From Limnomonas spitsbergensis (taxonomy: Eukaryota; Chlorophyta; Chlorophyceae; Chlamydomonadales): a stretch of DNA of 64,000 nt. Below are positions 1-64,000 of the stretch, piece by piece; within the stretch, counting starts at the first letter, position 1, and each line of letters starts with the position of its first letter. The position numbers and the translations under genes were made by a program. Where the stretch lies: assembly GCA_037349105.1 (NCBI GenBank), contig JAYJMM010000121.1:382001-446000 (forward strand), given 5' to 3'. The notes under the pieces were generated by a model. The model was not told where the DNA came from and searched no databases. It saw only the letters and a program-made list of their open reading frames with translations.

Positions 1-35
1 CTAGATCCCTCTGGTCATGCTCATTCTGCCCATTT

Positions 36-130
36 ACCTCCCCACACACTGTCACTACAGCTGCCAGGCAGAACACCTTTTACAGGATGGCAAACCCGTC
101 CATCATTAACTGTAAAGGTAGATAAAGATC
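36..130 (-). repeat. Junction echo of transporter exon (tail end)
   Basis: On the reverse strand this stretch resembles the end of the exon at 305-189 (FCLAAVVT followed by a GT donor) but carries an in-frame stop (FAIL then TAA) and further changes. It is a decayed second copy of the exon tail, placed downstream of the intact exon in the direction of transcription. Confidence 0.65.
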
Positions 131-188
131 CCTTGATCCCCCCTGCTCATGCTCATTCTGCCCATTCACCATTCACCCCCTGACGCAC

Positions 189-2657
189 CGTAACCACAGC
201 TGCCAGGCAGAACCCCTCCTCCAGGATGGCCAGGATGGAGGAGCGGAACACAGAGCCAACACCATCAGGGTCGGCATACGGCGGCCAAAGGTTGTTGGCA
301 GGGAACTGCAATCATGCATCACAAGAGGAAGGATCGGATTAGGGAAAGAGAAACAACGTCAATAAATCATGTGTCACATGGGGAAAGGTCAGATAAGGGA
401 AGGGAACAATGTTCATCCTTCATGGCAATCAGAGCCGGCGCCATCTGGTTGACACATGGCGGCCACAGGTTGTTGGCAGCGCACTGCAATAGTGTGTCAC
501 ATGGGGGAGTGTCAGATTAGGAAAGGGAAACATTGATCATCCTTAGTGGCAATCAGAGCCAACTCCGTCAGCGTCGGCATACAGCGGCCAAAGGTTGTTG
601 GCAGGGAACTGCAATCATGTGTCGCATGGGGGAGTGCCAGATACGGACAGGCGGGGGCCGGGGGAGAGATGTCCTGAACGGTACAAAGAGCCAACACCAT
701 AAGCAGCGGCCAGCCGGCCACAGGTTAAAGGCAAGGAACTGCAATCATATTTTGGATGGAGGAGGGTCAGAGAGGGAAAGAAAGAAAACGCAGGTGTCAA
801 TGGCTTAAGTGACGCATCCCCACACTTGATCATACTCAAACCCACACTATTGGGTCTTGATCTGCGGGACCAGAGTCACGCCGATCCCTGGCTCAACTAA
901 CCCAAACTACAGTTTTGTGTCCCCACACCAAATATTTACCCACCCCACACTAGTTACACTCCCCCTGGTTATCCTCAGATCTTCACTTGGGGGGCCAGGG
1001 TAACACCGATACCTGGCTCATCCCCACACTACAGTTATATGCCCCCACACTAAATCGTACTCGACCCCACACTAGTTACTCTATCTATCGGATCTTCACC
1101 TGAGGGACCAGGGTGACACCGATACCGAGGGCCAGGCCGCAGGTGAGGATGAAGCGCTCACGACGCTTGAGGGTCCCAGCAGCCAACAGGATCTGTAACA
1201 GGGGGCCAAAGAGTTGAGGTCATTCAGAGGTGAAAGGTGAGGATGAAGCGCTTACGACGCTTGAGGGTCCCAACAGCCAACATCTGTAACAGGGGTAACA
1301 GGGGGCCAAATATTGGTGTTCATATTAAGGTGTGGAAAGGTGTGGAGAGGTCTGCTCATACAGCATGGGGACAGAGCTAAGAAGAAGGAGATAATGGCGG
1401 AGGTGACGTCTTAGCCTTGTGAGCAAGCAGCATGGCTGCCCGCACCTGGGGCCTTGCGCTGAAGACCCGAGTGCTGCTGACGTGTACTTGGGCCACGGAA
1501 AAAACCCACAGACTTAAATCCCACATGCGTTCCTGAGTTCCATCTATCTGCCTGATCCCCAAATCCCCGAATCCCACCTTCATTCCCGAAGAAAGGATCA
1601 CTGACCCCCACTCCCACCTTGGTTACCCCCAAGCAACTAACTGACCACCACTCCCACTGAAATGCCCTAAGAAACCTGACCGCCACTCCCACCTTGATTC
1701 CCGAAGAAATGACGTTGGCGAACAGGAAGGTCGTCATGCCACCCTGAATGATAAAGAGTGACGAGTAATGAGTGGTGGGTCGAAAATAGTGGCATAGAGT
1801 GACACGAGTGTGGTGACAGCGATGGAGAGTGGGCGTCAAAAGTGAGGCAGTGCAACACATTTCTCAAGTAGGACTCGATGGGATGGGCATCGTGCATTTA
1901 AGAATGTCACAAGGCAGCTATTTATTTCTGCCACATCTTACATTTTGCCAAAAGGAACTCTTCCGCTAAAAATATATTGCGGAGTGTGTCCGCAACATGT
2001 TGTCTAAGCTTAAATTGCCGCTCCACAGCCGCCAAAGGCGCGATCGTGACTAAACCTGGACCGGCCAACATTTGGTGGCCAAGGCAGCATGGCTGGCCAC
2101 AAACAGGGCCTCCGGCCAGAGGCCTGCATATAGCTGACATGCAGCTGAGTTGTAAAAAACAATTTCCCTCTCTCACCAGAATGCAATTGGGAATGGAGAG
2201 CACCCATCCGCCGAACTTGGCGAAGGCGCCCAGCAGGATCAGCCAGAAGGAGCAGGCCCATCCAGCCTGGCGTGACGCAACATTGGTCAGGGCAATGACA
2301 CCTGGGAGGGTGTCAGCAGGATCAGCGGGATCAGTAGGATCAGCAGGGTCAGCAATATCAGCTGGATCAGCTGGGTCAGCAAAATCAGAGGGATCAGCTG
2401 GGTCAGCAAGACGAGAGGGATCAGCAGGATCAGTGAGATCAGCTGGATCAGTGGGATCAGCAGGAGCAGCGGGGATAGTGGGATCAGCAGGATCAGGCAC
2501 ATGAGCCACATCAGTGGGCTTAGTGGGATCTGTGGAATTAGCAGGATCAGCCAGATCAGCGGGATCGGCAGCACTCTTACCGTTATTTTGAGCGAATGTC
2601 GTCAGGGGCATGGTGAAACTCAGCAGTTTGTCGAGACCACAGGATCCCAGGATCAGA
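189..2657 (-). CDS. NAT/NCS2-family nucleobase (xanthine/uric acid type) permease, partial
   Basis: Reverse-strand exons, in order: about 2657-2581 (start uncertain), 2301-2177, 1743-1693, 1192-1100 and 305-189. All junctions are GT-AG and the phases join. The protein reads as the C-terminal half of a NAT/NCS2 proton symporter (UapA-like): the TTFAQNNGVIALT loop, GGMTTFLFANVISSGIK, RFILTCGLALGIGVTLVP and a last visible helix SILAILEEGFCLAAVV. In this family such segments form transmembrane helices 10-14 and the substrate loop; the protein would sit in the plasma membrane and import purines. The signature QNxGxxxxT[R/K/G] here ends in N instead of a basic residue or glycine. The C-terminal exons lie left of the window. 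N-terminal exons should lie between about 2660 and 5500 but I could not place them. The family call is firm; the substrate is inferred. Confidence 0.87.
430..790 (-). repeat. Junction echoes of transporter exon acceptor (3 copies)
   Basis: Three decayed copies, spaced about 130 bp, of the acceptor and first bases of the exon at 305-189. They lie near 459-495, 587-621 and 716-750. Each keeps the order CTATTGCAG or GATTGCAG, then a version of the FPANNLWPP coding bases. They lie upstream of the true exon in the intron. Confidence 0.75.
845..1080 (-). repeat. Junction echoes of transporter exon donor (2 copies)
   Basis: Two degenerate copies of the end of the exon at 1192-1100 (coding GIGVTLVPQ) with the following donor, near 972-1021 and 855-895, on the intron side. 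Reading frames are broken. Confidence 0.65.
1217..1300 (-). repeat. Junction echo of transporter exon acceptor
   Basis: A near copy of the start of the exon at 1192-1100 (AGTLKRRERFILT region), with a TGTTACAG-like acceptor, duplicated immediately upstream of it. Confidence 0.7.
1560..1690 (-). repeat. Junction echoes of short 17-codon transporter exon
   Basis: At least two degraded copies of TCTTCGGGAATCAAG plus GTGGGAGTG, the donor end of the exon at 1743-1693, occur at about 1570-1605 and 1615-1665. Confidence 0.6.
2302..2580 (-). repeat. Intron filled by a 9-nt-type minisatellite inside the NAT signature
   Basis: The donor (AACG|GTAAGAG) and acceptor (CCTCCCAG|GTGTC) join to restore Q-N-N-G-V-I-A-L-T. 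The intron is a degenerate repeat of GATCAGCAG-like units (forward strand) of about 250 bp. Read through on the reverse strand it has no stop and would insert about 90 residues of Asp-Pro-Ala type repeats in frame, so intron retention would still be translatable. Confidence 0.8.
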
Positions 2658-2667
2658 CTGGACACAA

Positions 2668-2864
2668 ATAACTGGCAGTCACCAAATAACTGGCAGTCAC
2701 CAAATAACTGGCAGTCACCAATAACTGGCAGTCACCAAATAACTGGCAGTCACCAAATAACTGGCAGTCACCAAATAAGTGGCAGTCACCAAAAAACTGG
2801 CAGTCACCAAATAACTGGCAGTCACCAAATAACTGGCAGTCACCAAATAACTGGCAGTCACCAA
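2668..2864. repeat. 18-bp minisatellite, 11 copies
   Basis: Eleven tandem copies of ATAACTGGCAGTCACCAA with one 1-bp deletion and three substitutions. It lies just upstream (reverse sense) of the proposed acceptor of the 2657-2581 exon. Confidence 0.95.
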
Positions 2865-3144
2865 ATATCCTCACGATCTCATTTGCGTGGCCCCACACCG
2901 TTTCTGTCCCAACCTCTAAAGATATACACCAAGCAGTACGTTCATAACTAGTATATAATAACATAACAACTCAGCCCACTCGCAACTGGACACCTCCGGC
3001 CTAGTACACACCAGGGACCCCGCCACCGAACACAGGTATGGATAGTATGGACAGAGGTGTAATATTATCGACCAGTTGTAAGGGGGCAGGCATACATGGG
3101 ATATTGGGCTGCTTTTGCAATTGTGGAAGATGTCAATGACAAGC

Positions 3145-3562
3145 ACACACACCTGTGTTGCGGCTGCGTTGCGCTCCACAGCCACTGACCCAGCCGGGGT
3201 GCGCATGTGCTCCAGAGTATAAAACATGTTCCAACCCCCATTCCCCACACATGCACACGCAAACACACCTGTGTTGCGGCTGCGTTGCGCTCCACAGCCA
3301 CTGACCCAGCCGGGGTGCGCATGTGCTCCACAGTATAAAACATGTTCCAACCCCCATTCCCCACACATCCACACGCAAACACACCTGTGTTGCGGCTGCG
3401 TTGCGCTCCACAGCCACTGACCCAGCCGGGGTGCGCATGTGCTCCACAGTATAAAACATGTTCCAACCGCCATTCCTCACACATCCACACGCAAACACAC
3501 CGGTGTTGCGGCTGCGTTGCGCTCCACAGCCACTGACCCAGCCGGGGTGCGCCTGCGCTCCT
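3145..3562 (-). repeat. Four tandem ~116-bp units carrying an exon-like end and GTGTG donor
   Basis: Each unit, read on the reverse strand, carries a stretch coding TPAGSVAVERNAAATQ (one of three open frames) ending in ACACAG or ACACCG followed by GTGTG, then intron-like sequence. The copy nearest 3600 extends further upstream into coding-like sequence. It fits the junction-echo pattern for an upstream exon of the transporter or of another reverse-strand gene, but the frame is not settled. Confidence 0.7.
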
Positions 3563-5538
3563 GCTCCCCACGGGCCTCGGACAAGCGCTGGCGCAGGCCA
3601 CATACTTGAGATAAAAAGTAATGCGGGGTTGGGAGTGGTAGGGCAGGGTGAGGAGAAGTAGGGCGTGGGGTGGGGAGACTGGAGAGTAAGAGTGTGGGTT
3701 GAGGTAGGGTAGTGCTGGGAGCTCGGACAAGCGCGGACGCAGGCCGGACATATGCACATCAATTCTGCTGAAGAAAGGTAGAAGTGTGAAATCCGAGAGA
3801 TTGGCTGATAGTTCAGCAGTATTAGCGGTGCACAGACTGATACATCATGACACAGGATCCATGTCGTGATTGTGATACCCATACTGGAAGGCACAGATGG
3901 TAGGAATATACCGGTAGATGATGCCGTGTTACACGCTGTACAGTATACAGCACATCCAGGGTAACCCAATACGGGAAAAAGGAAAGGTCAAATGGGCACA
4001 GTTCAGTAAGGTCATACGGTGTTCAAGGGCCCTCACTGGCCCTGAACAGTCACTATATGGGCACTTACATCTCATGAAAAAATGATGGCAAGTCAGTGAT
4101 GCAGACCATTCAAAGCTTATTGACAAGGACGCAACCTACCAAGACCCATGCATGGGCCTAAACTGGCCCACAAGAGCCAACATGCAGGCTTGCAACTATG
4201 CCATGCAAACACCTCTCAGAGTATGGGAAACTGTACCAGGCCACTTTGCAAACTGTGCGGCAAACGGTACCCTGTATAGGTTGCAAGGTAACCCTGTATA
4301 GGTTGCAAGGTAACCCTGTATAGGTTGCAAGGTAACCCTGTATAGGTTGCAAGGTAACCCTGTATAGGTTGCAAGGTAACCCTGTATAGGGTGCAAGGTA
4401 ACCCTGTATACTGGTAAAGCGAAGCCTGAAAATGTAGCATTTCCCAGGATTGAGGCCGTGATGGTAACATAACTGTGAGGCCATGCAGGTAGATCTGCAG
4501 CTGACGCAGTATTACAAACAATACGGCACAGTCAGGCAGATTCGTAAGACGTTGCCTGCATGTCCTAGGGTAGGATCGAGGAATCGAGGACGTAACTGTG
4601 ACATTGTAAGTTCGTGTTGGCAGATATTTGTCTGATGCCTACGGTAGTCAATCACACAGGCAGGTTTATGAAGCGGAAGTATAATTGGGCTGGATCACGA
4701 TCACGGTGGTCACGATCGGTGGTCACGTTGCTGGGAGTGAATGACGTGCTATCGGTGCACGCCATGCGGATCTGGAGCTGAGGTCGTATCACAGTTTTGT
4801 CCCTCTGGCCGTTATTTTATTTAGCTGAATGAATGCATTGTAGCTGACAACGGCGTACATCACACTCGAGTCAGCGGCCCCGCCCTCACCGCGAATCCTT
4901 GCTAACGCACCTCCGGCTGTACTCCCCATTCAACACTGCTCCACGAATTTCTCCGACCGCTGAGTGTTCGAGTGGGGGCAGTTGCCTGCCTGCTAGCAAA
5001 CCGCTATTTATCCACTATCAACTCGCTGCAATTAAACCTGAATCAGTGTTCGAATACAATACAGCGATCCGTTTATAATCCGCCTGGCCGAGGTCGGGCC
5101 CTGCTGGGCCGCCGTGAGAGCCTGATGCGCAACAACAGCGTCGACAAAGCGCCAGCAGCAAGTCGGCCATCATTGTCGTAGATATCAAGTAGGTTGCAGA
5201 CGCATAATCATGCCCTGCGACAGACGCATGGCGATGCATTTTTATCGGGCTCAATTGTAGGCAGCCATGCATGGCGTTGCACACCTGCATGGCCCTTAGG
5301 CATATTCCTGGCCTGACCCATGTCGTCAGATCTCAGCTGCATGCCTCGCCCTGGCATGGATGAAGGGTCTGACTCTAAGCTCACGTACCACACGGCATAC
5401 ATCAAGTGAAATCAAATTCGTTTATACTCAGGGTTGCAACAGATGTTACTCACTAACTGACCTGCGCATCAACCCCAACCAGCCTTTTTCAAAAGGGCAA
5501 TTTCATATAAACAGGAACGAAAGTTACATACGAAGCAT
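3563..5538. other. Region without a resolved gene between the transporter and the OPR/RAP gene
   Basis: Apart from the minisatellite at 4271-4416, I see no exon I can defend. The two flanking genes diverge from here, so it probably holds the first exons of the transporter and both promoters. No convincing TATA element was identified. Confidence 0.4.
4271..4416. repeat. 22-bp minisatellite, six full copies plus a partial
   Basis: Units begin CCCTGTATAGGTTGCAAGG and repeat exactly, apart from one substitution in the last full unit. Confidence 0.95.
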
Positions 5539-8500
5539 ATGAAACCCGCCACTCTTGGGGCTGACGCCATGCCCACACCGTCCACCTCCTTGCAACTGAC
5601 ACCCTCTTGTGCATGCTGCACGCGACGCAGGTTCAGGAACTTCACTGCCCCACACGTTCCGACCATGGCCTTCAGGCTGCCATCAGCGAACCCAGCTTCG
5701 AGAAGAGGAGGCCCCACTACCACCGCTGTAAACCGTGTTCATGGCTACGGCACGCATCATGCGCTAGCAACGCAGAGCGGGCGGCAACGGGGCATGTCCA
5801 GCACCAGCCGGGCCTCCTCATCCTCATCCTCATCCTCGTCCTCCTTCCTTCGGCTGGTGATCATGGCAGCCAGCGGGGCAGCGGGAATTCAGCCGTCACA
5901 TCGCAGCCCTCTCCGCTCCCGCGGCTCCTACACTCTGTCCGGTAGCTTCGCACCGCCGCCGCTGCCGCCAGCTACGGCACTTGCAGCTCAAAGTCGTTTT
6001 TTTAGGGGAAGCAGCAGTGGGAGTGATGCGCTTCCCACTCTTCCCGCCAGCTGCAGTGGGAGTGGGAGCGGTAGTGGTGCGCTTTCCGCTCTTTCCCCCA
6101 GCTGGCAGCCGTCCTCCTCGTACAATCTCACATCCCTTGCAGAACATCGGGATAGCATCATCACCAACAGCAGCAGCAGCAGCAGCAGAAACAGCAGCAG
6201 CAACATAAATAGTAGCAGCAGCAGCGACAGCAACAGCAGCAACAATATCGACTCAAACAGCAGCAGCAAAAACAGCAACAAAAATAGGAACAGTAGTAGC
6301 TTCAATAGCAGCAGCAGCAGCAGCAGCAGCAGTGGCGGGCCAGTCACCTCCCCCGACCCGATCCGTCCTACTTTCCCGCACCGCCCAGCTGTCCTGCAAC
6401 ACGCCTCCCAGCCCGCCATCCAATCCGCGCTTGACCAACTAGATGCTCCCCACCCACCAGCAGGGCCGGCAGGGGGACAGACAGCAGCAGCGGTCTCCCC
6501 TGGGCCTGTGGACCGTCACCCAACTGCTTCCCACCCAATGGGTCCAACGGGTGGGCCGTTTGCGGGGACAAGAGCGGGGCCTAACGCTACTCGTCCAACG
6601 CCGGGGCCGACAGCGGGACCAGTAGCGGAGCCAAGAGCAGGGCCCCCCGCTCCCCGCCCCACACCAGGGCTGACAGCCGGACCTTTGGCAGGGCCAAGAG
6701 CGGGTCTTACTTATCCCCGTCCGCCGCTGGTGCCGCCTGTAGGTCTGTCAGGGTCCGCACCGCCTTCGGCCGGTCAGCTGACAAGGCTGCTGGCAAGCTG
6801 TAGATCTGAGCCTGAGCTGTGCACATTACTGCAGGCCACACTGGAGCATGCTCAACAGCAGCAGCAACAGCAGCAACAGCTGCAACAGCAGCAGCTGTGG
6901 AAACAGCAGCAGCAGCAGCCTCAACATGGGCAGCCACAGCTGGCCCTGAACGGGATCCATATTTGTGCCGCGGCTGGCGTGTTGGTGCGGCTACGAGGTG
7001 GCGCTCAGCACCTTCAGTCCGGCGTGCGCTTAACAGCGGCCGCTGGAGGAGGCTCGAAAAACGGATCAAACGCGGCAGAATGGATCTCCACCTTTGTCCT
7101 CCTCGGAGGCCGCGGCAACCCCAAGGGGGCCCTCCCGACCTCTGCTGCTGGAAGACAGCCTGCAGGACTCCTGTTGCCAAGAAGAGAACCTGCTTCAGCT
7201 GCTAGCTCTTCTAATCCCCGCTTTTCTGCTGGTGCTGCTGCCGTTCGTGCCGTTCCTTTCTCTCTCGTCTCCCCCTTCTCCTCTTCCTCCTCCTTTTCCT
7301 CTGCCGCATCTGATGGTGGGGTGCAGCCGTTCCTGTTGGTCTGCGGGATGCGAGAGCTGTCGGGAATCGCCGGCGCCATGGCCAAGCTGATGCACAACGA
7401 CTCAAGGTGCGATGGGGATGGATTAAATAGCTCCAACCCTAAACCCTAAACCCTAAACTTTAACCTATGGCTCAGGGTTAAGGGTTACAAGGTGTGATGG
7501 GGATTTCCGGCGTCATGGCCAAGCTGATGCAGAATGACCCAAGGTGCGATGGGGGTGGTGTAACAGCTACAATTAAAAACCGTTTACTAGGGTTCAGGGT
7601 TTAGGGTAACAAGGTGCGATGGGGATTGATCAAACAGCCCTCTAGCCCTAAACTTTAAGCTGTGGCTCAGGGACAAGGGCTGCTGCAAGGTGCGAAGGGG
7701 ATGGATCAATCGGCTACAACGCTTAACCCTACAATAGATTTTCATATGTTTTGCTCTTGTGTATGCCTTTTTCTCAGGTGGCCGCAGACAGTGGCGCACA
7801 CCATCCTCCACCGGCCCACGATGCAGCTGCAGTTTTCTGAACCGATACCGGTATTTAAACAAGAAACTGTTTTGCCTTTTCTTTTGTGCAGGTGGCCACA
7901 GGCAGTGGCGCATGGCACCATCCACCAGCCCGCGTCCCAGCCGTAATTTTCTGCACCGGTACTGGTACCGTCGGTAGACACAACATGTTCTCGGTTTTGC
8001 TTTTTTTGTGGCGCAGGTGGCTGCAGGCAGTAGGGCATGCCATCATCCACCGGCCCGTGACCCAGCTGTAATTTTCTGAACCGTCACCAGAATTGGTACT
8101 TTAAACAAAGAAAACGCTTTATGTTTCTCTTTTGCGCAGATAGCCACGTGCAGTAGCGCATGCCATCATCCACCGGCCCGCATCCCACCTGTAATTTTCA
8201 TCACCGGAACTGGCACCGTCGGAAGTTACACACAAAAAAGGGCTTTGCTTTTCCTTTTGCGCACGTGGCGGCAGGCAGTGGCGCACGCCATCATCCACCG
8301 GCCCGCGGCGCAGCTGTAATTTTGTGTCCCGTTTCTGATACCGGACCACTGGCAGTAAAAACGTTCCGTTTTTCTCCTTGTGCATGCCTTTTGCGTAGGT
8401 GGCCGCGGTCAGTGGCGCATGCCATCGTTCACCAGCCCGCGATGCAGCTGCAGTTATCTGAACCGTTGCCGGTACCTTTATTTCAAACAACAAAACGGTT

Positions 8501-46535: not shown

Positions 46536-46539
46536 CACA

Positions 46540-54300: not shown

Positions 54301-57300
54301 ATGGTGAGTGGTGACAGTGGATGGTGAGTGGCGGCAGTGGATGGTGAGTGGTGGCAGTGGATGGTGAGTGGTGGCAGTGGATGGTGAGTGGTGGCAGTGG
54401 ATGGTGAGTGGTGGCAGTGGATGTTGAGTGGTGGCAGTGGATGGTGAGTGGTGGCAGTGGATGGTGGGTGGTGGCAGTGGATGTTGTGTGGTGGCAGTGG
54501 ATGGTGAGTGGTGGCAATGGATGGTGAGTGGTGGCAGTGGATGGTGAGTGGTGACAGTGGATGGTGAGTGGTGGCAGTGGATGGTGAGTGGTGGCAGTGG
54601 ATGGTGTGTGGTGGTAGTGGATGGTGAGTGGTGGCAGTGGATGGTGAGTGGTGGCAGTGGATGGTGAGTGGTTGCAGTTGATGGTGAGTGGTGGCAGTGG
54701 ATGGTGAGTGGTGGCAGTGGATGGTGAGTGGTGGCAGTGGATGGTGAGTGGTGGCAGTGGATGGTGTGTGGTGGCAGTGGGTGGTGAGTGGTGACAGTGT
54801 ATGGTGAGTGGTGGCAGTGTATGATGAGTGGTGGCAGTGGATGGTGAGTGGTGGCAGTGGATGGTGAGTGGTGGCAGTGGATGGTGGGTGGTGGCAGTGG
54901 ATGGTGAGTGGTGGCAGTGGATGGTGAGTGGTGGCAGTGGATGGTGAGTGGTGGCAGTGGATGGTGAGTGGTGGCAGTGGATGGTGAGTGGTGGCAGTGG
55001 ATGGTGAGTGGTGGCAGTGGATGGTGAGTGGTGGCAGTGGATGGTGAGTGGTGGCAGTGGATGGTGAGTGGTGGCAGTGGATGGTGGGTGGTGGCAGTGG
55101 ATGTTGTGTGGTGGCAGTGGATGGTGAGTGGTGGCAATGGATGGTGAGTGGTGGCAGTGGATGGTGAGTGGTGACAGTGGATGGTGAGTGGTGGCAGTGG
55201 ATGGTGAGTGGTGGCAGTGGATGGTGTGTGGTGGTAGTGGATGGTGAGTGGTGGCAGTGGATGGTGAGTGGTGGCAGTGGATGGTGAGTGGTTGCAGTTG
55301 ATGGTGAGTGGTGGCAGTGGATGGTGAGTGGTGGCAGTTGATGGTGAGTGGTGGCAGTGGATGGTGAGTGGTGGCAGTGGATGGTGTGTGGTGGCAGTGG
55401 GTGGTGAGTGGTGACAGTGTATGGTGAGTGGTGGCAGTGTATGATGAGTGGTGGCAGTGGATGGTGAGTGGTGGCAGTGGATGGTGAGTGGTGGCAGTGG
55501 ATGGTGAGTGGTGGCAGTGGATGGTGAGTGGTGGCAGTGGATGGTGAGTGGTGGCAGTGGATGGTGAGTGGTGGCAGTGGATGGTGAGTGGTGGCAGTGG
55601 ATGGTGAGTGGTGGCAGTGGATGGTGAGTGGTGGCAGTGGATGGTGAGTGGTGGCAGTGGATGGTGAGTGGTGGCAGTGGATGGTGAGTGGTGGCAGTGG
55701 ATGGTGAGTGGTGGCAGTGGATGGTGAGTGGTGGCAGTGGATGGTGAGTGGGGACAGTGGATGGTGAGTGGTGGCAGTTGGTGATGAGTTGTGTCAGTGT
55801 ATGCTGAGTGGTGGCAGTGGATGGTGAGTGGTGGCAGTGGATGGTGAGTGGTGACAGTGTATGGTGAGTGGTGGCAGTGGATGGTGAGTGGTGGCAGTGG
55901 ATGTTGAGTGGTGGCAGTGGATGTTGAGTGGTGGCAGTGGATGGTGAGTGGTGGCAGTGGATGTTGAGTGGTGGCAGTGTATGGTGAGTGGTGGCAGTGG
56001 ATGGTGAGTGGTGACAGTGGATGGTGAGTGGGGGCAGTGTATGGTGAGTGGTGACAGTGGATGGTGAGTGGTGGCAGTGGATGGTGAGTGGTGGAAGTGT
56101 ATGGTGAGTGGTGACAGTGGATGGTGAGTGGTGGCAGTGGATGGTGAGTGGTGGAAGTGTATGGTGAGTGGTGACAGTGGATGGTGAGTGGTGGCAGTGG
56201 ATGGTGAGTGGTGGAAGTGTATGGTGAGTGGTGGCAGTGTATGGTGAGTGGTGGCAGTGGATGGTGAGTGGTGGCAGCGGATGGTGAGTGGTGGTAGTGG
56301 ATGGTGAGTGGTGGCAGTGGATGGTGAGTGGTGGCAGTGGATGGTGAGTGATAGCAGTGGATGGTGAGTGATGGCAGTGGATGGTGAGTGGTGACAGTGG
56401 ATGGTGAGTGGTGGCAGTGGATGGTGAGTGGTGGCAGTGGGGATGGTGGGTGGTGGCAGTGGATGGTGAGTGGTGACAGTGGATGGTGAGTGGTGGCAGT
56501 GGATGGTGCGTGGTGGCAGTGGGTGGTGCGTGGTGACAGTGGATGGTGAGTGGTGGCAGTCGATGGTGAGTGGTTGCAGTGGATGGTGAGTGGTGACAGT
56601 GGATGGTGAGTGGTGGCAGTGGATGGTGAGTGGTGGCAGTGGATGATGAGTGGTGGCAGTGGATGGTGAGTGGTGGCAGTGGATGGTGAGTGGTGGCACT
56701 GGATGGTGAGTGGTGGCAGTGGATGGTGGGCACCTGTCGGATTTCATCGAGACGACGGAGCTCATGGCCAACCTGTCGGTCAATCCAGCAAGGCTGACCA
56801 GGCAAGAGCACTTAGGTCATGCCTTTGCTTACAACCGTCAAGTCTGAACCCTAAACTCTCCCGGGCGGTACATGGCGTGGTTGTACTGCCTCACTGTATA
56901 CTCTCCCGGATGGTACATGGTGGTTGTACTGCCTGACTGTACCCTAAACTCTCCCGGGCGGTACACAATGTGGTTGTACTGCTTCACTGTGCCCTAAATT
57001 CTCATGAGCGGTACATGGTGTGGTTACACTGCCTCACTGTACCCTGCAGCTTTCACCCCGTACCCGCACCTTCCTACTCAAGGCTTCCAGGTTATATGCG
57101 GTGGTCTTGATTCCCCTATCTTCAACCCTGAACCCTAAACGTTAAGCCCTAAACCACGAACCCTCCCAGGCGGTGCGTGGTGCGGTCGTACTGCCTTACG
57201 GTACCGGAAAGAAGGTCAGCATCTGTGTGTTCGCGCGTGGTGCCGAGGCGGAAGCGGCCAGGCAAGAAGGTGCGTGGACAATTATCCAGGTTTGCCCCCT

Positions 57301-60300
57301 TCCCTCCGTTAGCCCCCTTCCCTCCGTTTGCCCCTTCCCTCCGTTTACCCCCTTCCCTACGTTTGCCCCCTCTCTCCCCTTTTACTGCCCTTAACTCCCA
57401 AGGCACACTCTCTTCACCCCTGCCCCCTGCTCTTTACTTCCTGAACCTCCACGCCCTAGTAGGGCGTAGCTTTCTTTCTTTCACCCCCCACCTCATTCCG
57501 CAGGTGCTGACGTCATTGGGGACGATGAGTAATTGCCGCTATAGTGGAGAGCAGAGGCAAGGCGGTCACGTTCGACATTTATTGGCCTCCTCCGAACAAA
57601 CAATCCGTTTGTCCCCCGCCCTCCGCTCTTTCCCGCCCCCCCACCCAACACACGCTCCCTACAACCCCTCCCCTTGTTTCATGGCCCCTTCCTCCCAACA
57701 CACATTCCCTTCACCTCCCGCCTCATTCCGCAGGTGCCGACGTCATTGGGGACGAGGAGTTAATCGCAGCGATAGTGGAGAGCGGGGGCAAGGCGGTCAC
57801 GTTCGACAAGCTGATCGCGACACCAGAATTCATGAGGCCTTTGGCCAAGGCCGGAAAGGTCCTGGGACCCAAAGGCATGATGCCAAATGTCAAGGTAAGG
57901 GCATGTTGCCAAATGTCAAGGTATGTGTATGCGGAGATACCCAAAGGGGGGAGAAAGGGAGTGGGATAAGGGAAGGAGCCTATTTGCCGTTGAACCCTCG
58001 AGATTGTGAGCTCAGCATTGCCTCCTGAGCATGAGTTTCTAGAGTTTTTCGGTGTCCTGGCCAAGGTGGGAAACTTCCAGGGGCCCAAGGGCATGAAAGG
58101 AAGAATGAAAGCTACGCCCCGTGTGGGGCGTGAGAGTTAAGGAAACAGCGCAGCCTGGGCCGAAGCCACATCTGCGCCCGTACCTTGACATTTGGCAGGA
58201 GAGGTCCAGAGGCCCAGGGGCATGATCCCTTACGCCTACGTCAAGAGCATTTAGGCATCCCAGTGTCTTGAACTTCGAGAGGGGAACAGGATAGTTAGGC
58301 AAAATCCCTTTATTTCCTTCAAACAATTCCCTTACCTGCCTCCCACTTCACCATTTCCCTCAAGCATGGCCTCGCAAACCCTGTCAAGCCTGCTGGGCCT
58401 ACAGCCTGCTGCCCTCCCGTATGGGCTTGCCGACCCGCGATACATTTAGTACCCTTGCCGTCTCACCCTCCTGAAGCCTGTGCGCCTAAAACATGATACT
58501 TCCCCATATGGGCTTGCTGACCCGCGATGCATTAGCGATACCCATAAGAGAAAAACGCCGTGAGGAAGTAGGCGCTTCTTTCTTGTTTGCATCATGGTAG
58601 CGATGCGGATGTGGCTACGGCCCCAAGCTCCGCTGTTTCCTGCACGTCCACGCCCTAGTAGGGCGTAGCTTTCTTTCTTTCTCAGGCACCCTTGTCGGCA
58701 CACCCTTCTGTGGGCCTACAGCATGATGCTTTCCCTCACGGGCGTGCTGACCAGCGATACATTAACAATACCCTTACGATCTTACTCAGACACCCGTCCC
58801 ACACTCCTGAAGCCTGTATTCCTACAGGCTGTCGCCTTCCCAGATGGGCATAACAATCAATCAGTGATCCCTGTCATTGGAAATTTGGTTGAAGTATGAA
58901 TCTTTGCCGTGTTTTACTGCCTTGCTCAGTTGGGCACGCTGACCAGTGATCACTGTCATTGGAAATTTCAAATTTGGTTGAAGTATGGATCTTTGCCGTG
59001 TTTTACTGCCTTGCACAGTTGGGCACGCTGACCAGTGATCACTGTCATTGGAAATTTCAAATTTGGTTGAAGTATGGATCTTTGCCGTGTTTTACTGCCT
59101 TGCACAGTTGGGCACGCTGACCAGTGATCACTGTCATTGGAAATTTCAAATTTGGTTGAAGTATGGATCTTTGCCGTGTTTTACTGCCTTGCACAGTTGG
59201 GCACGCTGACCAGTGATCACTGTCATTGGAAATTTCAAATTTGGTTGAAGTATGGATCTTTGCCGTGTTTTACTGCCTTGCACAGTTGGGCACGCTGACC
59301 AGTGATCACTGTCATTGGAAATTTCAAATTTGGTTGAAGTATGGATCTTTGCCGTGTTTTACTGCCTTGCACAGTTGGGCACGCTGACCAGCAATCACTG
59401 TCGTTGGAAATTTCAAATTTGGTTGAAGTATAAATCGTTGCCATGTTTTACTGCCTTGCACAGTTGGGCACGCTGACCAGCGATCACTGTCATTGGAAAT
59501 TTCAAATTCGGTTGAAGTATGGATATTTCCCGCGTTTTTCTGCCTTGCGCAGCTCGGCACGTTGACCAACGACGTGGTTGGTGCCATTCGGGACATGAGG
59601 CGAGGCCGCATGGATTTCCGCGTAGACCGGGACGGCATTGTGCATGCAGCTCTGGGCAAGGTGTGTGTGTGGAGGGGGGGGGGGGAGTAGGGTTTGGGGT
59701 TAAGGGTAAACGGTTTGGGGTTAAAGGTTTAGGGTAGGTAGGAGGGAGTAGAAGGGGAGAGGGGGGGGGCAGAGAGGGTGTGGCACACAGCCGCATGGAT
59801 TTCCGAGTAGATAGGGGCGGGATCGTACATACAGCTCTGAGCAAGGTGGGAGGGGGAGAAGGGGGAGGCAGAGAGGGTGTGGCACACAGCCGCATGGATT
59901 TCTGAGTAGATAGGGGCGGGATCGTACATGCAGCTCTGGGCATAGTGGGAGGGGGTAGAAGAGGGGGGGAGGGAGGGGGGGAGACACAGCCGCATGGATT
60001 ACCGAGTAGATAGGGACAGGATCGTACATGCAGCTCTGGGCATAGTGGGAGGGGGAGAAGGGGGGGGGAGGGAGGGGGGGAGACACAGCTGTGTGGATTA
60101 CCGAGTAGATAGGGACAGGATCGTACATGCAGCTCTGGGCATAGTGGGAGGGGGTAGAAGAGGGGGGGAGGGAGGGGGGGAGACACAGCTGTGTGGATTA
60201 CTGAGTAGGGACGGGATTTTGAATACAGCTCTAAGCAAAGTGAGAGGGGGGCAGAAGGAGGGTTGGGATCTGCAGAACTGGGCAAAGCAGGAGGAGGGAG

Positions 60301-60942
60301 AGGTCAGGCAGGAGGGATACTCCAGGTCCTATCATGACTCCCTTACTCCTGTACCAGCTATACCCCACCTGAATGTGTAGTTGAGCCTATCCCCCCCCCC
60401 ACACACACCCAGCAACAGCCTGTGAATGCGAGGCTGTTGTACGGCCCACGCTCCGCATTTATTCATGTGGCTGTCAGTCATTGTAAAGGAGCTGCCCCCC
60501 CCCTTCAGACACACACAGCAGCTTGAATCGAGCGCAACGGGTGCTCTTCCAATTCATGCCCCGTCGGAATGTTCTTGTCTCTGTAGATTTTAATTCCCCC
60601 TTGCCTGCTTGTGTCGGTGAGCTTTCCTTTTCTCCCCAGCAACAGCGTGAAGCGAGAACATTGGATGCTTCCCCAATCCACCTCTTGTAGGAATTTGTAC
60701 GTTGGTAGTGTTTTTACTTTTCCCGCCTGCCTGCCTGGTGAACTTCCCCCCCCAGCAGCTCGCGGAGAACATTGGAGCCCTAACCCTAAACCCTTAACCC
60801 CTTAACCCTAAACCCTTAGTTACTTCCCGTCTGCCTGCGCAGGTGAGCTTTCCCCCCCAGCAGCTCGCGGAGAACATTGGAGCGCTCATGAACGCATTGC
60901 TGAGTCAGCGACCCCGGTCTGTTGCCGGGTCAGGCATCCAAG
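48355..60942 (+). CDS. RPL1: Organellar 50S-type ribosomal protein uL1, 5' part to window edge
   Basis: Exons 48355-48552, 50711-50863, 52651-52782, 57170-57269, 57734-57894, 59553-59660 and 60843-60942 join with consistent phases (317 codons plus one base); the C-terminal exon(s) lie beyond 64000. uL1 hallmarks follow in order: [90 protein letters not shown] and [13 protein letters not shown]. uL1 binds 23S-type rRNA at the mobile L1 stalk and helps tRNA exit from the E site. The first 66 residues look like a targeting peptide; HRTLSSS resembles a mitochondrial cleavage site, but plastid import cannot be excluded. Coding sequence is 7.6% of the span; the rest is mostly junction-echo and minisatellite introns. 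Confidence 0.92.
48850..49570 (+). repeat. ~80-90-bp tandem array in uL1 intron 1 (about nine units)
   Basis: Units contain GGCTGCATGGTATGCACTTC, ATCTTGAGTGCAACACTTG, and GTTACAATGAAGGGAGCTTC. The first units carry GAGAGCACCGCATGG, resembling sequence just after the exon 1 donor (AAGAGCGCTGCATGG), so the array may derive from that donor region. Confidence 0.9.
49698..49762 (-). repeat. Hairpin-tailed dispersed element, copy c
   Basis: In reverse orientation relative to copy a: GCTGCGCTGTTTCCCTAAC, then CACGCCCC-AAT-GGGGCGTAG, then a T-rich (CTTT-like) tail. Confidence 0.8.
49905..50440 (+). repeat. G-rich imperfect minisatellite in uL1 intron 1
   Basis: Repeats of CTGAAGGTGGGAGGGGG separated by variable G-runs, some longer than 15 G. 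It has quadruplex-forming potential. No coding content. Confidence 0.9.
50590..50642 (+). repeat. Echo of uL1 exon 2 acceptor
   Basis: CATCATCTCCACCACTGCGC followed by CATGGCCCTTTGTGG duplicates the exon 2 start ([12 protein letters not shown]) about 140 bp upstream of it. Confidence 0.8.
50870..50985 (+). repeat. Telomere-like repeats with an echo of uL1 exon 2 donor
   Basis: GGGCACCTGGGAGCGC after the exon 2 donor recurs at 50966-50982. Between lie TTTAGGGTTTAGGG and then CCTAAACCCTAAACCC, in inverted arrangement around GGCGCTCCCAGAAGGGTACC. Confidence 0.75.
51904..51955 (-). repeat. Hairpin-tailed dispersed element, copy d (truncated)
   Basis: CCTTAACTCTCACGCCCC-TGC-GGGGCGTAA followed by a T-rich tail. 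The part upstream of CCTTAAC is missing. Confidence 0.75.
52470..52540 (+). repeat. Echo of uL1 exon 3 acceptor
   Basis: GGACAGGCCAACACTACCGC plus CCGTGTGTCTGGT repeats the acceptor and first bases of exon 3 (52651) with a single change, about 160 bp upstream. Confidence 0.85.
52841..56735 (+). repeat. 20-bp minisatellite with donor-like unit, ~195 copies, in uL1 intron 3
   Basis: The unit is GGTGAGTGGTGGCAGTGGAT, which contains the strong donor word GGTGAGT. From about 52861 to 56440 the register never slips; variants are substitutions only. A 2-bp insertion occurs near 56441. Higher-order structure is visible, with a 620-bp (31-unit) period. Confidence 0.98.
56736..56800 (+). pseudogene. 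Second, decayed copy of uL1 exon 3
   Basis: TCGGATTTCATCGAGACGAC onward matches exon 3 ([17 protein letters not shown] becomes [17 protein letters not shown]). An indel follows, and the donor GTAAGAG has become GCAAGAG. It closes the right side of the 20-bp array, so the array lies between two exon 3 copies. Confidence 0.88.
56855..57060 (+). repeat. Four echoes of uL1 exon 4 acceptor
   Basis: Copies of CTCCCGGGCGGTACATGGCG, then TGGTTGTACTGCCTCACTGT, resemble the exon 4 start (CTCCCAG|GCGGTGCGTGGTG, then CGTACTGCCTTACGGTACC). Each is about 45-50 bp and precedes the true exon at 57170. Confidence 0.85.
57290..57372 (+). repeat. CT-rich short repeat in uL1 intron 4
   Basis: Five units of about 17-19 bp of the type CCCCCTTCCCTCCGTTTG, close after the exon 4 donor. 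Confidence 0.9.
57436..57484 (-). repeat. Hairpin-tailed dispersed element, copy e
   Basis: CTGAACCTCCACGCCCT-AGT-AGGGCGTAGC followed by TTTCTTTCTTTC. The stem pair at the loop end is T-A here, versus C-G in copies a, c, d and f. Confidence 0.8.
57498..57577 (+). repeat. Echo of uL1 exon 5 acceptor with in-frame stop
   Basis: It repeats the acceptor CCTCATTCCGCAG and the next ~75 bases of exon 5, but GACGAGGAGTTAATC has become GACGATGAGTAATT, giving a stop. The true exon starts at 57734. Confidence 0.88.
57900..58100 (+). repeat. Echoes of uL1 exon 5 donor
   Basis: GGCATGTTGCCAAATGTCAAGG at 57900-57921 and a diverged CCTGGCCAAGGTGGGAAACT ... GGGCCCAAGGGCATG at 58056-58095 copy the exon end. 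A third, inverted piece (CCTTGACATTTGGCAG) follows element copy f near 58183. Confidence 0.8.
58095..58185 (+). repeat. Hairpin-tailed dispersed element, copy f
   Basis: GAAAGGAAGAATGAAAGC, then TACGCCCC-GTGT-GGGGCGTG, then AGAGTTAAGGAAACAGCGC and AGCCTGGGCCGAAGCCACA. It matches copy a over its whole length. It sits inside an exon 5 echo, directly after GGGCCCAAGGGCATG. Confidence 0.85.
58602..58682 (-). repeat. Hairpin-tailed dispersed element, copy g
   Basis: GATGCGGATGTGGCTACGGC, then CTCCGCTGTTTCCTGCACGT, then CCACGCCCT-AGT-AGGGCGTAGC and a CTTT tail. It is a full-length reverse-orientation copy. Confidence 0.85.
58870..59548 (+). repeat. Seven echoes of uL1 exon 6 acceptor (~88-bp units)
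   Basis: Each unit ends in a branch/pyrimidine region, CTGCCTTGCACAG, then TTGGGCACGCTGACCAG, which corresponds to the exon 6 start CTCGGCACGTTGACCAACG. Five or six units are nearly identical. The true exon begins at 59553. Confidence 0.93.
59780..60240 (+). repeat. Five echoes of uL1 exon 6 donor (~100-bp units)
   Basis: Units repeat GCATGGATTTCCGAGTAGAT, then GGGATCGTACATGCAGCTCT, then GAGCAAG or GGCATAG plus GTGGGAGG. They match the exon end coding [18 protein letters not shown] and its donor. The later units have CATAGTGGG instead of CAAGGTGTG at the donor. Confidence 0.93.
60630..60790 (+). repeat. Echoes of uL1 exon 7 acceptor
   Basis: Two copies of GTGAGCTTTCC...CAGCAGCTCGCGGAGAACATTGGA: diverged at about 60625-60665 and close at 60739-60779. 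The second is followed by telomere-like CCCTAAA words. Confidence 0.85.
60776..60822 (+). repeat. Interstitial telomere-like repeat
   Basis: CCCTAACCCTAAACCC followed by TTAACCCC and CCCTAAACCC units, directly before the exon 7 acceptor. Confidence 0.75.
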
Positions 60943-63880
60943 GTGGGGCTGGTGGGGGAGGGGGGGCAGGTGTGTGAGCAACCCCATGCTTGTGTTGCTG
61001 AGTCAGGGGCCCTGGTCTGTTGCCGGGTCAGGCATCCAAGGTGGGGCTGGTGGGGGAGGGGGGGCAGGTGTGTGAGCAACCCCATGCTTGTGTTGCTGAG
61101 TCAGGGGCCCTGGTCTGTTGCCGGGTCAGGCATCCAAGGTGGGGCTGGTGGGGGAGGGGGGGCAGGTGTGTGAGCAACCCCATGCTTGTGTTGCTGAGTC
61201 AGGGGCCCTGGTCTGTTGCCGGGTCAGGCTTCCAAGGTGGGGCTGGTGGGGGAGGGGGGGCAGGTGTGTGAGCAACCCCATGCTTGTGCTGCTGAGTCAG
61301 GGGCCCTGGTCTGTTGCCGGGTCAGGCATCCAAGGTGGGGCTGGTGGGGGAGGGGGGGCAGGTGTGTGAGCAACCCCGTGCTTGTGTTGCTGAGTCAGGG
61401 GCCCTGGTCTGTTGCCGGGTCAGGCATCCAAGGTGGGGCTGGTGGGAGAGGGGGGGCAGGTGTGTGAGCAACCCCATGCATGTGTTGCTGAGTCAGGGGC
61501 CCTGGTCTGTTGCCGGGTCAGGCATCCAAGGTGGGGCTGGTGGGGGAGGGGGGGCAGTGTGTGAGCAACCCCATGCTTGTGTTGCTGAGTCAGGGGCCCT
61601 GGTCTGTTGCCGGGTCAGGCATCCAAGGTGGGGCTGGTGGGGGAGGGGGGGCAGGTGTGTGAGCAACCCCATGCTTGTGTTGCTGAGTCAGGGGCCCTGG
61701 TCTGTTGCCGGGTCAGGCATCCAAGGTGGGGCTGGTGGGGGAGGGGGGGCAGGTGTGTGAGCAACCCCATGCTTGTGTTGCTGAGTCAGCGGCCCTGGTC
61801 TGTTGCCGGGTCAGGCATCCAAGGTGGGGCTGGTGGGGGAGGGGGGGCAGGTGTGTGAGCAACCCCATGCTTGTGTTGCTGAGTCAGGGTCCCTGGTCTG
61901 TTGCCGGGTCAGGCATCCAAGGTGGGGCTGGTGGGGGAGGGGGGGCAGGTGTGTGAGCAACCCCATGCTTGTGTTGCTGAGTCAGCGGCCCTGGTCTGTT
62001 GCCGGGTCAGGCATCCAAGGTGGGGCTGGTGGGGGAGGGGGGGCAGGTGTGTGAGCAACCCCATGCTTGTGTTGCTGAGTCAGGGGCCCTGGTCTGTTGC
62101 CGGGTCAGGCATCCAAGGTGGGGCTGGTGGGGGAGGGGGGGCAGGTGTGTGAGCAACCCCATGCATGTGTTGCTGAGTCAGGGGCCCTGGTCTGTTGCCG
62201 GGTCAGGCATCCAAGGTGGGGCTGGTGGGGGAGGGGGGGCAGGTGTGTGAGCAACCCCATGCATGTGTTGCTGAGTCAGGGGCCCTGGTATGTTGCCGGG
62301 TTAGGCATCCAAGGTGGGGCTGGTGGGGGAGGGGGGGCAGGTGTGTGAGCAACCCCATGCTTGTGCTGCTGAGTCAGCGGCCCTGGTCTGTTGCCGGGTC
62401 AGGCATCCAAGGTGGGGCTGGTGGGGGAGGGGGGGCAGGTGTGTGAGCAACCCCATGCTTGTGCTGCTGAGTCAGCGGCCCTGGTCTGTTGCCGGGTCAG
62501 GCATCCAAGGTGGGGCTGGTGGGGGAGGGGGGGCAGGTGTGTGAGCAACCCCATGCTTGTGTTGCTGAGTCAGGGGTCCTGGTCTGTTGCCGGGTCAGGC
62601 ATCCAAGGTGGGGCTGGTGGGGGAGGGGGGGCAGGTGTGTGAGCAACCCCATGCTTGTGTTGCTGAGTCAGCGGCCCTGGTCTGTTGCCGGGTCAGGCAT
62701 CCAAGGTGGGGCTGGTGGGGGAGGGGGGGCAGGTGTGTGAGCAACCCCATGCATGTGTTGCTGAGTCAGGGGCCCTGGTCTGTTGCCGGGTCAGGCATCC
62801 AAGGTGGGGCTGGTGGGGGAGGGGGGGCAGGTGTGTGAGCAACCCCATGCATGTGTTGCTGAGTCAGGGGCCCTGGTCTGTTGCCGGGTCAGGCATCCAA
62901 GGTGGGGCTGGTGGGGGAGGGGGGCATATGTGTGAGCAACCCAATGCATGTGTTGCTGAGTCAGGGGCCCTGGTCTGTTGCCGGGCCAGGCATCCAAGGT
63001 GGGGCTGGTGGGGGAGGGGGGGCAGGTGTGTGAGCAACCCCATGCATGTGTTGCTGAGTCAGGGGCCCTGGTCTGTTGCCGGGTCAGGCGTCCAAGGTGG
63101 GGCTGGTGGGGGAGGGGGGGCAGGTGTGTGAGCAACCCCATGCATGTGTTGCTGAGTCAGGGGCCCTGGTCTGTTTCCGGGTCAGGCGTCCAAGGTGGGG
63201 CTGGTGGGGGAGGGGGGGCAGGTGTGTGAGCAACCCCATGCATGTGTTGCTGAGTCAGGGGCCCTGGTCTGTTGCCGGGTCAGGCATCCAAGGTGGGGCT
63301 GGTAGGGGAGGGGGGGCAGGTGTGTGAGCAACCCCATGCATGTGCTGCTGAGTCAGGGGCCCTGGTCTGTTGCCGGGTCAGGCATCCAAGGTGGGGCTGG
63401 TGGGGGAGGGGGGCAGGTGTGTGAGCAACCCCATGCATGTGTTGCTGAGTCAGTGGCCCTGTACTGTTGCCGGGTCAGGCATCCAAGGTGGGGCTGGTGG
63501 GGGAGGGGGGCAGGTGTGTGAGCAACCCCATGCATGTGTTGCTGAGTCAGGGGCCCTGGTCTGTTGCCGGGTCAGGCATCCAAGGTGGGGCTGGTGGGGG
63601 AGGGGGGGCAGGTGTGTGAGCAACCCCATGCTTGTGTTGCTGAGTCAGGGGCCCTGGTCTGTTGCCGGGTCAGGCATCCAAGGTGGGGCTGGTGGGGGAG
63701 GGGGGCAGGTGTGTGAGCAACCCCATGCTTGTGCTGCTGAGTCAGGGGCCCTGGTCTGTTGCCGGGTCGGGCGTCCAAGGTGGGGCTGGTGGGGGAGGGG
63801 GGGCAAGGGGAGGGGGGGAGGGGGAGGGCAAGGGAGGGGGGCAGGTGTGTGAGCACCCCCTTGCCTGCGTTGATGAGTCA
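60943..63880 (+). repeat. ~30 echoes of uL1 exon 7 donor (98-bp units, nearly identical)
   Basis: Every 98 bp the exon end recurs (TTGCTGAGTCAGGGGCCCTG, GTCTGTTGCCGGGTCAGGC, ATCCAAG) with its donor GTGGGGCTGG, then G-rich spacer and GCAGGTGTGTGAGCAACCCC. Unit-to-unit differences are only a few bases, so homogenisation is recent. The array consensus differs from the functional exon at GGGGCCCTGG versus GCGACCCCGG. Confidence 0.97.
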
Positions 63881-64000
63881 GCGGCCCACGTCTGTTGCCG
63901 GGTTGGGCGTCCAAGATGGGGCATGGGGATGGGGGGGACGTCAAGGGGTGGAGGAGGTTTTTGGGATGAATTTGAAGGTGAGATAAAACCTGGACCGGCC
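63881..64000 (+). other. Right edge of uL1 intron 7
   Basis: The last degenerate unit, then unique sequence. The final exon of uL1 is not reached. The window ends in AAACCTGGACCGGCC, a word also present at about 2046-2060. Confidence 0.5.

Follow-up and report, generated by a model that had tools for sequence, protein, structure and literature searches.

The window, the whole 64,000-nt stretch of DNA analysed here, contains a permease gene, an OPR/RAP-type gene, a piece of a membrane-protein gene, a uL1 gene and glycosidase-like genes. The transporter matches Xan_ur_permease (PF00860, E=9.3e-11). The OPR/RAP gene consists of 10 exons in one open frame of 2,792 codons; the Pfam search with two of its pieces found no family, and no second genomic copy of 1 kb of its exon O5 was found. 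The uL1 gene is of the bacterial type with 7 exons (PF00687, E=3.6e-50), and its best named matches are from Edaphochlamys (60%) and Gonium (58%). The glycosidase genes have short introns. When 7,998 candidates were scored as homologues of the glycosidase-like exon, none reached E<=1e-5, and two pieces gave nothing above the cut-off against Pfam. No RNA family reached its gathering score within the window. Copies of an exon edge located on the intron side of the same exon are called echoes here. The genes and echoes are as follows.

189..3604, minus strand: permease gene (exon models)
Minus strand: permease exons T1 3501-3604 (weak), T2 2581-2657, A 2177-2301
Minus strand: permease exons B 1693-1743, C 1100-1192, D 189-305
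3720..3760, minus strand: T1 acceptor-side echo
3139..3500, minus strand: T1 donor-side echo array, 116-bp unit, 3 intron copies
1570..1692, minus strand: B donor-side echoes, 3 copies
860..1310, minus strand: exon C echoes on both sides, one acceptor copy and two donor copies
310..770, minus strand: D acceptor-side echoes, 3 copies
45..90, minus strand: D donor-side echo
5459..26932, plus strand: OPR/RAP-type gene, single open frame
Plus strand: OPR exons O1 (ORF from 5459) to 7406, O2 8521-8716, O3 9579-10694, O4 11925-12047
Plus strand: OPR exons O5 13376-16698, O6 17482-17617, O7 18229-18336
Plus strand: OPR exons O8 18961-20128, O9 20956-21098, O10 26816-26932
7500..7700, plus strand: O1 donor-side echoes
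7764..8500, plus strand: O2 acceptor-side echo array, about 125-bp unit, 6 copies
8763..8805, plus strand: O2 donor-side echo
9110..9290, plus strand: O3 acceptor-side echoes, 2 copies
10695..11500, plus strand: O3 donor-side echo array, about 113-bp unit, 6 copies
12130..12300, plus strand: O4 donor-side echoes
12690..13375, plus strand: O5 acceptor-side echoes, 5 copies
18040..18180, plus strand: O7 acceptor-side echoes, 2 copies
18337..18660, plus strand: O7 donor-side echo array, 104-bp unit, 3 copies
20129..20900, plus strand: O8 donor-side echo array, 142-156-bp steps, 5 copies, similarity dropping with distance
26060..26815, plus strand: O10 acceptor-side echo array, about 145-bp unit, 5 copies
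27065..27478, plus strand: three copies of the last about 80-90 OPR coding nt, 3' of the stop codon
44237..46800, minus strand: membrane-protein piece, two exons (M0 45469-45544, M2 44237-44405); M0 has echoes on both the acceptor and the donor side, M2 on the acceptor side
44070..44200, minus strand: echo past the 3' end of M2 (donor, or gene end)
49800..60942, plus strand: uL1 gene (exon models)
Plus strand: uL1 exons U0 49800-49924, U1 50711-50863, U2 52651-52782, U3 57170-57269
Plus strand: uL1 exons U4 57734-57894, U5 59553-59660, U6 60843-60942
48858..49572, plus strand: 83-bp array, 8.6 copies, unit matching the sequence around the uL1 start codon
49925..50395, plus strand: U0 donor-side echo array, about 37-bp unit, 10 copies
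50595..50650, plus strand: U1 acceptor-side echo
52481..52570, plus strand: U2 acceptor-side echo
56737..56813, plus strand: U2 donor-side echo, about 4 kb downstream, past a 20-bp array (52835-56728)
56844..57045, plus strand: U3 acceptor-side echoes, about 50-bp unit, 4 copies
57480..57600, plus strand: U4 acceptor-side echo
57895..57920, plus strand: U4 donor-side echo, 26-bp duplication
58881..59552, plus strand: U5 acceptor-side echo array, 89-bp unit, 7 intron copies
59754..60250, plus strand: U5 donor-side echo array, about 99-bp unit, 5 copies
60613..60790, plus strand: U6 acceptor-side echoes, 2
60943..63805, plus strand: U6 donor-side echo array, 98-bp unit, about 30 copies

The initial annotation described exon edges of four genes as copied tandemly on the intron side, and this observation is confirmed. 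The outer 36 exon nt of each edge were aligned to the adjacent intron, and the score was compared with those of 60 dinucleotide shuffles and 60 segments from introns of other genes. In the four genes, with exon models that keep open frames, the adjacent-intron copy scored above every null at 32 of 47 splice edges (15/23 acceptors and 17/24 donors), against 3/47 for reverse-complement probes. When exon T1 and the membrane gene, whose models are the weakest, were left out, 26/41 edges remained above all nulls. Echoes are present on at least one side of 21 of the 25 exons; T2, A, O6 and O9 have none on either side in this strict test. The U5 acceptor array falls below the threshold because each copy holds only about 20 exon nt. 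A second scan with a different threshold detected copies at 34/48 edges, the OPR stop being counted among the edges. The glycosidase-like genes were described as free of echoes, and none of their four edges has one, nor do their introns show duplications.

The number of copies per edge ranges from 1 to 30, the same range as reported initially, and divergence from the exon is 0-31%, in most copies 5-25%. They are concentrated at the very edge. Probes with a copy decreased from 32/48 at an exon offset of 0 nt to 22/46 at 18, 11/46 at 36, 6/42 at 54, 1/34 at 72 and 0/21 at 90 nt, and reach past 70 nt into the exon is rare. The exon portion of the nearest copy is 14-100 nt (median 45), and the step from exon to nearest copy has quartiles of about 100-160 nt. 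The share of exon in the unit departs from a uniform distribution (mean 0.40, KS p=0.004, n=28), to which detection limits contribute. Where alignable, GT is kept in 70/75 donor copies and AG in 31/40 acceptor copies, and the copies extend across the junction, as had been noted. A fall of fidelity with distance, also proposed, was assessed in the 11 arrays that have 4 or more copies and is significant in two, the O8 donor and M0 acceptor arrays; a general similarity gradient along arrays can thus be rejected.

Duplication is not restricted to splice junctions. Tiles of 36 nt from intron interiors are duplicated at 0.48-0.65 in bins below 1 kb and at 1.00 beyond, about equal to the edges (32/48 = 0.67, OPR stop included). 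Exons also carry tandem arrays, and their periods are filtered by frame. When arrays with a period of at least 7 were counted and overlapping rows collapsed, the period was divisible by 3 in 16/16 arrays in modelled exons (glycosidases included), in 5/20 in introns and in 2/8 at junctions (Fisher, 6e-7). Some gene ends without splicing have copies as well. The copies after the OPR stop codon show 70-89% identity, and the uL1 start region recurs in the preceding array, although a coding-only probe of the uL1 start did not match that array (48858..49572). Five further gene ends were tested and no echo was found.

It is likely, with a probability of roughly 0.65, that the introns grew via frequent small tandem duplications occurring gene-wide, with selection on the protein and splicing acting as filters. 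Small tandem duplications would arise throughout the gene, in exons and introns alike. Within an exon, only multiples of three would survive, while any length could survive within an intron. A duplication crossing a junction would copy either the intron tail with the exon head or the exon tail with the intron head. The spliceosome would continue to recognise the copy that is contiguous with the remaining exon, whereby the duplication survives, and the other copy would turn into intron sequence as an echo that brings along an AG or GT. Slippage or unequal exchange, if repeated, could expand such echoes into arrays, and mutation would erode the copies. That splicing ignores the echoes is an inference, as are the sequence of events and the mechanism that generates the duplications. 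In simulations with no targeting, starting introns of 80 bp gave copies at 0.60 of edges and 0.61 of the interior; with starting introns of 150 and 250 bp the fraction of edges was 0.52 and 0.40, short of the 0.67 observed, and further settings with foreign insertions gave 0.25-0.63.

Echoes are also present outside the window. They were detected at 9/82 and 17/92 edges (11-18%) in two samples that share genes, on eight other contigs in the first sample and three more in the second. The first sample used 27/30 tRNA-synthetase matches (leaving out two on C113 and one on C36), 67/72 chaperonin matches (C61:563247, C82, C97 and two on C102 left out) and 6/10 uL1 matches (two on C28 and the window's two left out); 6 exon pairs without consistent splice sites were dropped. 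Foreign-intron controls were 0 in these other genes. In these sampled genes echoes recur against zero controls at 11-18% of edges, so that the window is extreme by comparison. Intron interiors in the second sample were duplicated at 0.24. Because other genes are low in both edges and interiors, edges appear to follow the overall level of duplication. The background itself is heterogeneous, since the tandem share in random genome stretches varied widely (1.00, 1.00, 0.27 and 0.14).

Three duplicated gene pairs allow the history of individual junctions to be compared. Echoes occur at 7 junctions in both members, at 3 in one member and at 36 in neither (p=2e-6); the echoed junctions are 7/10 in one member and 7/7 in the other. 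In the C84/C114 pair, conserved blocks near 3530 and 5643 are unmodelled, and two "introns" there contain an exon; in the C39/C99 pair, one exon has unequal lengths (226/229). The exon structure common to the paired genes speaks for longer introns rather than new ones. Only 4/305 derived echo changes are shared, and echoes at the same junctions with so few shared derived changes are not predicted by random placement. At 3/7 shared junctions the two members are 70-82% identical over the 120-nt intron flank, a stretch in which the echo itself may lie, and fourfold sites of these pairs differ by 0.47-0.49, a combination that neutral decay does not predict. The same-junction echoes suggest that some junctions have been repeatedly re-duplicated or homogenised. 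It is a tentative possibility that particular junctions are standing sources of duplication, which re-duplicate over and over or homogenise their copies with the exon; introns would then lengthen outward, and echoes at the same junctions would be independently renewed in separated gene copies.

Amplification aimed at splice junctions as such, in which borders would duplicate repeatedly through R-loops or G-rich donor flanks, stalled replication or splicing-linked breaks and introns grow outward, appears rather unlikely. The gene pairs, with their hint of renewal, speak for it, a number of the large donor-side arrays have a G-rich coding strand, and C. reinhardtii and Volvox are reported to have tandem repeats close to junctions of introns and exons (PMC3887541). 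An approximately two-fold junction preference was also needed in the simulation with ancestral introns of 150-250 bp, that is, unless these were very short; the preference hinges on the assumed ancestral length and on foreign insertions, and no value is claimed. On the other hand, intron interiors are duplicated about as often as edges, exons carry in-frame arrays, and copies lie at some gene ends without splicing. At sites where paired exons differ, the two echoes agree with each other 17 times and with their own exon 9 times, which is compatible with shared descent. The initial interpretation, a recurrent local process making introns grow outward from exons, is thus partly supported: copies are local, introns are longer and other genes are affected too, but an aim at junctions as such is not supported.

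Retention of echoes as decoy or regulated unproductive splice sites, whose use on the intron side would cause a frameshift or stop and mRNA decay, is improbable. In its favour, certain echo flanks are better conserved in the gene pairs than most other introns (0.82, 0.75 and 0.70, echo-less junctions averaging 0.50 with a highest value of 0.68), 10/15 donors and 8/15 acceptors have one or more echoes whose score is no lower than that of the real site, and the nearest echo lies at a multiple of three in just 6/32. Real sites are nevertheless stronger than echoes on average (p=0.003 and 0.047), and one shared echo has an 8-nt deletion in one gene copy. Identity at the donor GT is 0.92 versus 0.86 at neighbouring positions (p=0.11), and at the acceptor AG 0.85 versus 0.86 (p=0.76); with no depletion and no clear retention of the splice dinucleotides, selection to destroy echo splice sites is rejected. 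An assembly artefact is very improbable. Long tandem arrays are hard to assemble, but the divergence of copies from their exons, their recurrence on other contigs and their presence at matching junctions of duplicated genes argue against it. The insertion of a mobile element or introner family at junctions is hardly credible. Introners are reported in green algae (PMC9860276), and this genome holds a dispersed ~90-bp element. The echo units, however, hold the adjacent exon's own sequence, and edge probes matched introns of other genes in 0/460 cases. Two units searched, those of the U6 donor and O2 acceptor arrays, match only their own junction in the 260-Mb genome, in a search that skips simple repeats and very common words; for these two a mobile origin is contradicted, in agreement with the initial annotation.

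Long introns are usually attributed to transposons and small insertions. Tandem exon duplication copies exon sequence locally, as here, but an echo carries a portion of an exon with a single splice site and not the complete exon with the sites at its two ends. Arrays of head-to-tail copies of 10-100+ bp, as in minisatellites (VNTRs), were found by TRF, and many echoes are single copies. Human minisatellites reportedly change exon-intron structure, tandem arrays altering gene structure or splice-site content (PMC2812944), and human introns are reported to have arisen from tandem arrays (Zhuo 2007, cited in PMC3488318). In the RdRp gene of potato, a tandem duplication spans the border of an intron and an exon, and through splicing some of the copied sequence becomes intron (PMC4974935). 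The local duplication that copies splice signals is alike (see also the review PMC3443670), but here existing introns appear lengthened, with up to 30 copies per array and with the majority of edges affected in several genes. In the related algae C. reinhardtii and Volvox, a survey reports tandem repeats densest in introns and CDS and more frequent near intron ends, with in-frame periods favoured in CDS (PMC3887541). Its units are 1-50 bp, against steps of mostly 100-160 nt here, and in the passages concerned the question whether a unit repeats the edge of its neighbouring exon is not raised.

If the introns grew by gene-wide duplication, they keep a readable record of junction-crossing events, from which growth rate, direction and tolerance could be measured edge by edge. 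Gene predictors are likely to be misled by echo copies. Each copy of the U6 donor array, for which no other locus was found in the genome search, holds about 46 nt of exon end plus GT. About 30 donors almost identical to that of U6 follow it, yet the reading frame needs the first one; seven similar acceptors precede that of U5, yet the last is needed. Exon definition, the recognition of splice sites across the exon, would solve both choices, and this genome is a natural test of it. Array length also varies between paralogues in the glycosidase genes, where a 3'UTR array counts 8.7 copies in one paralogue but just about a single copy in the other.

Echoes, the intronic copies of an exon edge and its splice site, are a real phenomenon. 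The outer 36 nt of each exon edge were aligned to the adjacent intron, and an edge was scored positive when it exceeded all of 60 dinucleotide shuffles and 60 foreign-intron segments. The 52 edges comprised 47 splice edges from the four genes, the OPR stop and four edges from the glycosidase-like genes. In this test, 33 of the 52 edges were above every null, as were 3/52 of the reverse-complement probes. The transporter contributed 7/12, the OPR gene 11/18 plus its stop, the membrane-protein gene 4/4 and uL1 10/13. The initial annotation had described echoes at most exon edges in these genes and none in the glycosidase-like genes; it was borne out on both counts, with 32/47 splice edges positive (26/41 when transporter exon T1 and the membrane-protein gene are removed) and 0/4 glycosidase edges. 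A separate scan with junction-spanning probes and a different threshold found copies at 34/48 edges.

The exon share of the copies fades with depth, from 32/48 edges at 0 nt to 22/46 at 18, 11/46 at 36, 6/42 at 54, 1/34 at 72 and 0/21 at 90 nt. The nearest copy lies at a median distance of 122 nt, and its exon part has a median length of 45 nt (range 14-100). Among alignable sites, GT is retained in 70/75 donor copies, 30 of which come from one array, and AG in 31/40 acceptor copies. Pyrimidine-rich or acceptor-like arrays at 2313-2571 and 2665-2867, before transporter exons A and T2, repeat the intron end and not the exon. Two giant intron arrays, at 21111-25858 (39-bp unit) and 52835-56728 (20-bp unit), are G-rich on the coding strand, and no clear exon-edge copy was found inside them.

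The exons were read off the sequence and joined at GT/AG sites. In these predicted models, the OPR gene has a single open frame across ten exons (2,792 codons), the seven exons of uL1 give 292 codons, and transporter exons T2 to D are in phase and open. The two exons of the membrane-protein gene give 81 codons when joined and are open in two frames; its model, like that of T1, draws its support solely from splice signals and the reading frame. Pfam searches detected Ribosomal_L1 in uL1 (E 3.6e-50) and Xan_ur_permease in the transporter (E 9.3e-11), and found no family for the two pieces of the OPR gene tried. We take this ten-exon gene to be an OPR/RAP gene. The best matches to the uL1 protein are from Edaphochlamys (60%) and Gonium (58%), which suggests a green alga of the Chlamydomonas group. 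The genome is 260 Mb in 124 contigs, and in the window (C121:382001-446000) GC content in 2-kb steps is 0.73-0.75 inside the largest array and 0.49-0.66 elsewhere.

The 98-bp unit on the donor side of uL1 exon U6 and the 125-bp unit on the acceptor side of OPR exon O2 matched the genome only at their own junctions, in a search that leaves simple repeats and the most frequent words aside. This contradicts, for the two units searched, a mobile-element origin, which the initial annotation had already disfavoured. A dispersed element of ~90 bp is also present in the window, with several copies in introns.

9328-9420, copy of the dispersed ~90-bp element
17829-17917, copy of the same element
58092-58184, copy of the same element
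58596-58681 (-), copy of the same element
49695-49762 (-), copy of the same element

There were 2,372 first-look candidates for this element in the genome; among the 40 scored, non-self matches were 91-95% identical. It had no match in Rfam.

Duplication is not confined to exon edges. In distance bins lying within 1 kb of an exon, 0.48-0.65 of the 36-nt tiles in intron interiors of the four genes have a second copy within 1 kb, which puts duplication at edges and in interiors at about the same frequency. The share is 1.00 for tiles over 1 kb from an exon, in the giant arrays, 0 in the glycosidase introns, and 0.24, 0.02, 0.21, 0.01 and 0.01 in five nongenic stretches. Periods divisible by three were found in 16/16 arrays in modelled exons, against 5/20 in introns and 2/8 across junctions (exon vs. 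intron plus junction, Fisher 6e-7), and in 4/13 outside. Downstream of the OPR stop codon are three copies of the final 80-90 coding nt (70-89% identity). An 83-bp array before uL1 resembles the uL1 start region plus 5' flank (score 24, null maximum 14) and shows no match to the coding sequence alone (score 8). No echoes were seen at five further gene ends (the OPR start, and the stops and approximate starts of both glycosidase-like genes). The interior density, the in-frame exon arrays and the gene-end copies therefore point to a single duplication process, filtered by selection, over a splice-junction process. When random duplications in growing introns were simulated from starting lengths of 80, 150 and 250 bp, the share of echo-bearing edges was 0.60, 0.52 and 0.40 without junction preference and 0.69, 0.65 and 0.60 with a two-fold preference. 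Since introns of relatives have reported median lengths of 198-343 bp (PMC8226300), duplication may have a mild junction preference. Most of the data can be explained without the junction-targeted process proposed initially, although the comparison of paired genes keeps it alive.

This comparison used three chaperonin gene pairs on other contigs (L027/L028, L031/L032 and L033/L034), duplicated copies with a common exon structure, conserved exons and fast-changing introns. They may derive from an old genome duplication or a hybrid origin. Exon identity is 86-93%, fourfold sites differ by 25-49%, and intron flanks are mostly near chance identity. Echoes occur at 17/92 edges (foreign intron 0/460, reverse complement 1/92). 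Among 46 paired junctions, 7 have an echo in both copies, 3 in one and 36 in none (Fisher 2.2e-6). At sites differing between paired exons, the echoes agree with each other in 17 cases and each with its own exon in 9, with 9 others; a change common to both echoes was found at 4/305 exon-identical sites. Therefore, the junctions are common to both copies, and the echoes look little older than the gene split, or renewed since. They may reflect renewal, homogenisation with the exon, or constraint. Flank identity averages 0.62 at 7 shared-echo junctions and 0.50 at 32 junctions without an echo (p=0.02), an excess due to three flanks (0.82, 0.75 and 0.70); the echo itself may fall inside the 120 nt compared. 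In a first genome sample of 41 introns from 18 conserved genes on contigs other than that of the window, echoes were found at 9/82 edges (foreign intron 0, reverse complement 1/82). The phenomenon thus recurs elsewhere among the genes of this genome, with the window as an extreme case.

A duplication crossing a junction would leave one copy attached to the exon body. If the splice site of that copy were used, the protein would be unchanged and the intron longer by one unit. The mean strength of real sites exceeds that of echo sites (donors p=0.003, acceptors p=0.047). At least one echo equals or outscores the real site at 10/15 donors and 8/15 acceptors, so site strength alone is insufficient to guide splicing everywhere. 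In the predicted models the true donor is the first of its array and the true acceptor the last. A first-come rule would therefore fail for acceptors and a last-come rule for donors. Recognition across the exon would account for both choices.

Introns are known to arise by tandem duplication (PMC3443670, PMC2891723). In two related algae, tandem repeats with units of 1-50 bp are reported as densest in introns and commoner near intron ends (PMC3887541). The case described in a potato gene (PMC4974935) is a single boundary-crossing tandem duplication, whereas the window has echoes at most edges of several genes. Genes in which most junctions carry arrays copied from the neighbouring exon edge were not found among the titles and abstract openings searched, where subscription journals are thinly covered.

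The gene first called glycosidase-like is present as a tandem duplicate (27928-33431 and 34814-39943). Two pieces of it matched no Pfam family above the cut-off, and its long exon had no homologue at E<=1e-5 among the candidates scored. A 35-bp array of 8.7 copies (28918-29224) lies ~90 bp past the stop of one gene. It probably expanded after the gene duplication, because the paralogue, which is 96% identical, carries roughly a single copy of the unit. A neighbouring locus (L039, C121:372000-377500) contains matches to the N-terminal region of a further Xan_ur_permease gene, ~7 kb from the transporter of the window and on the same strand.
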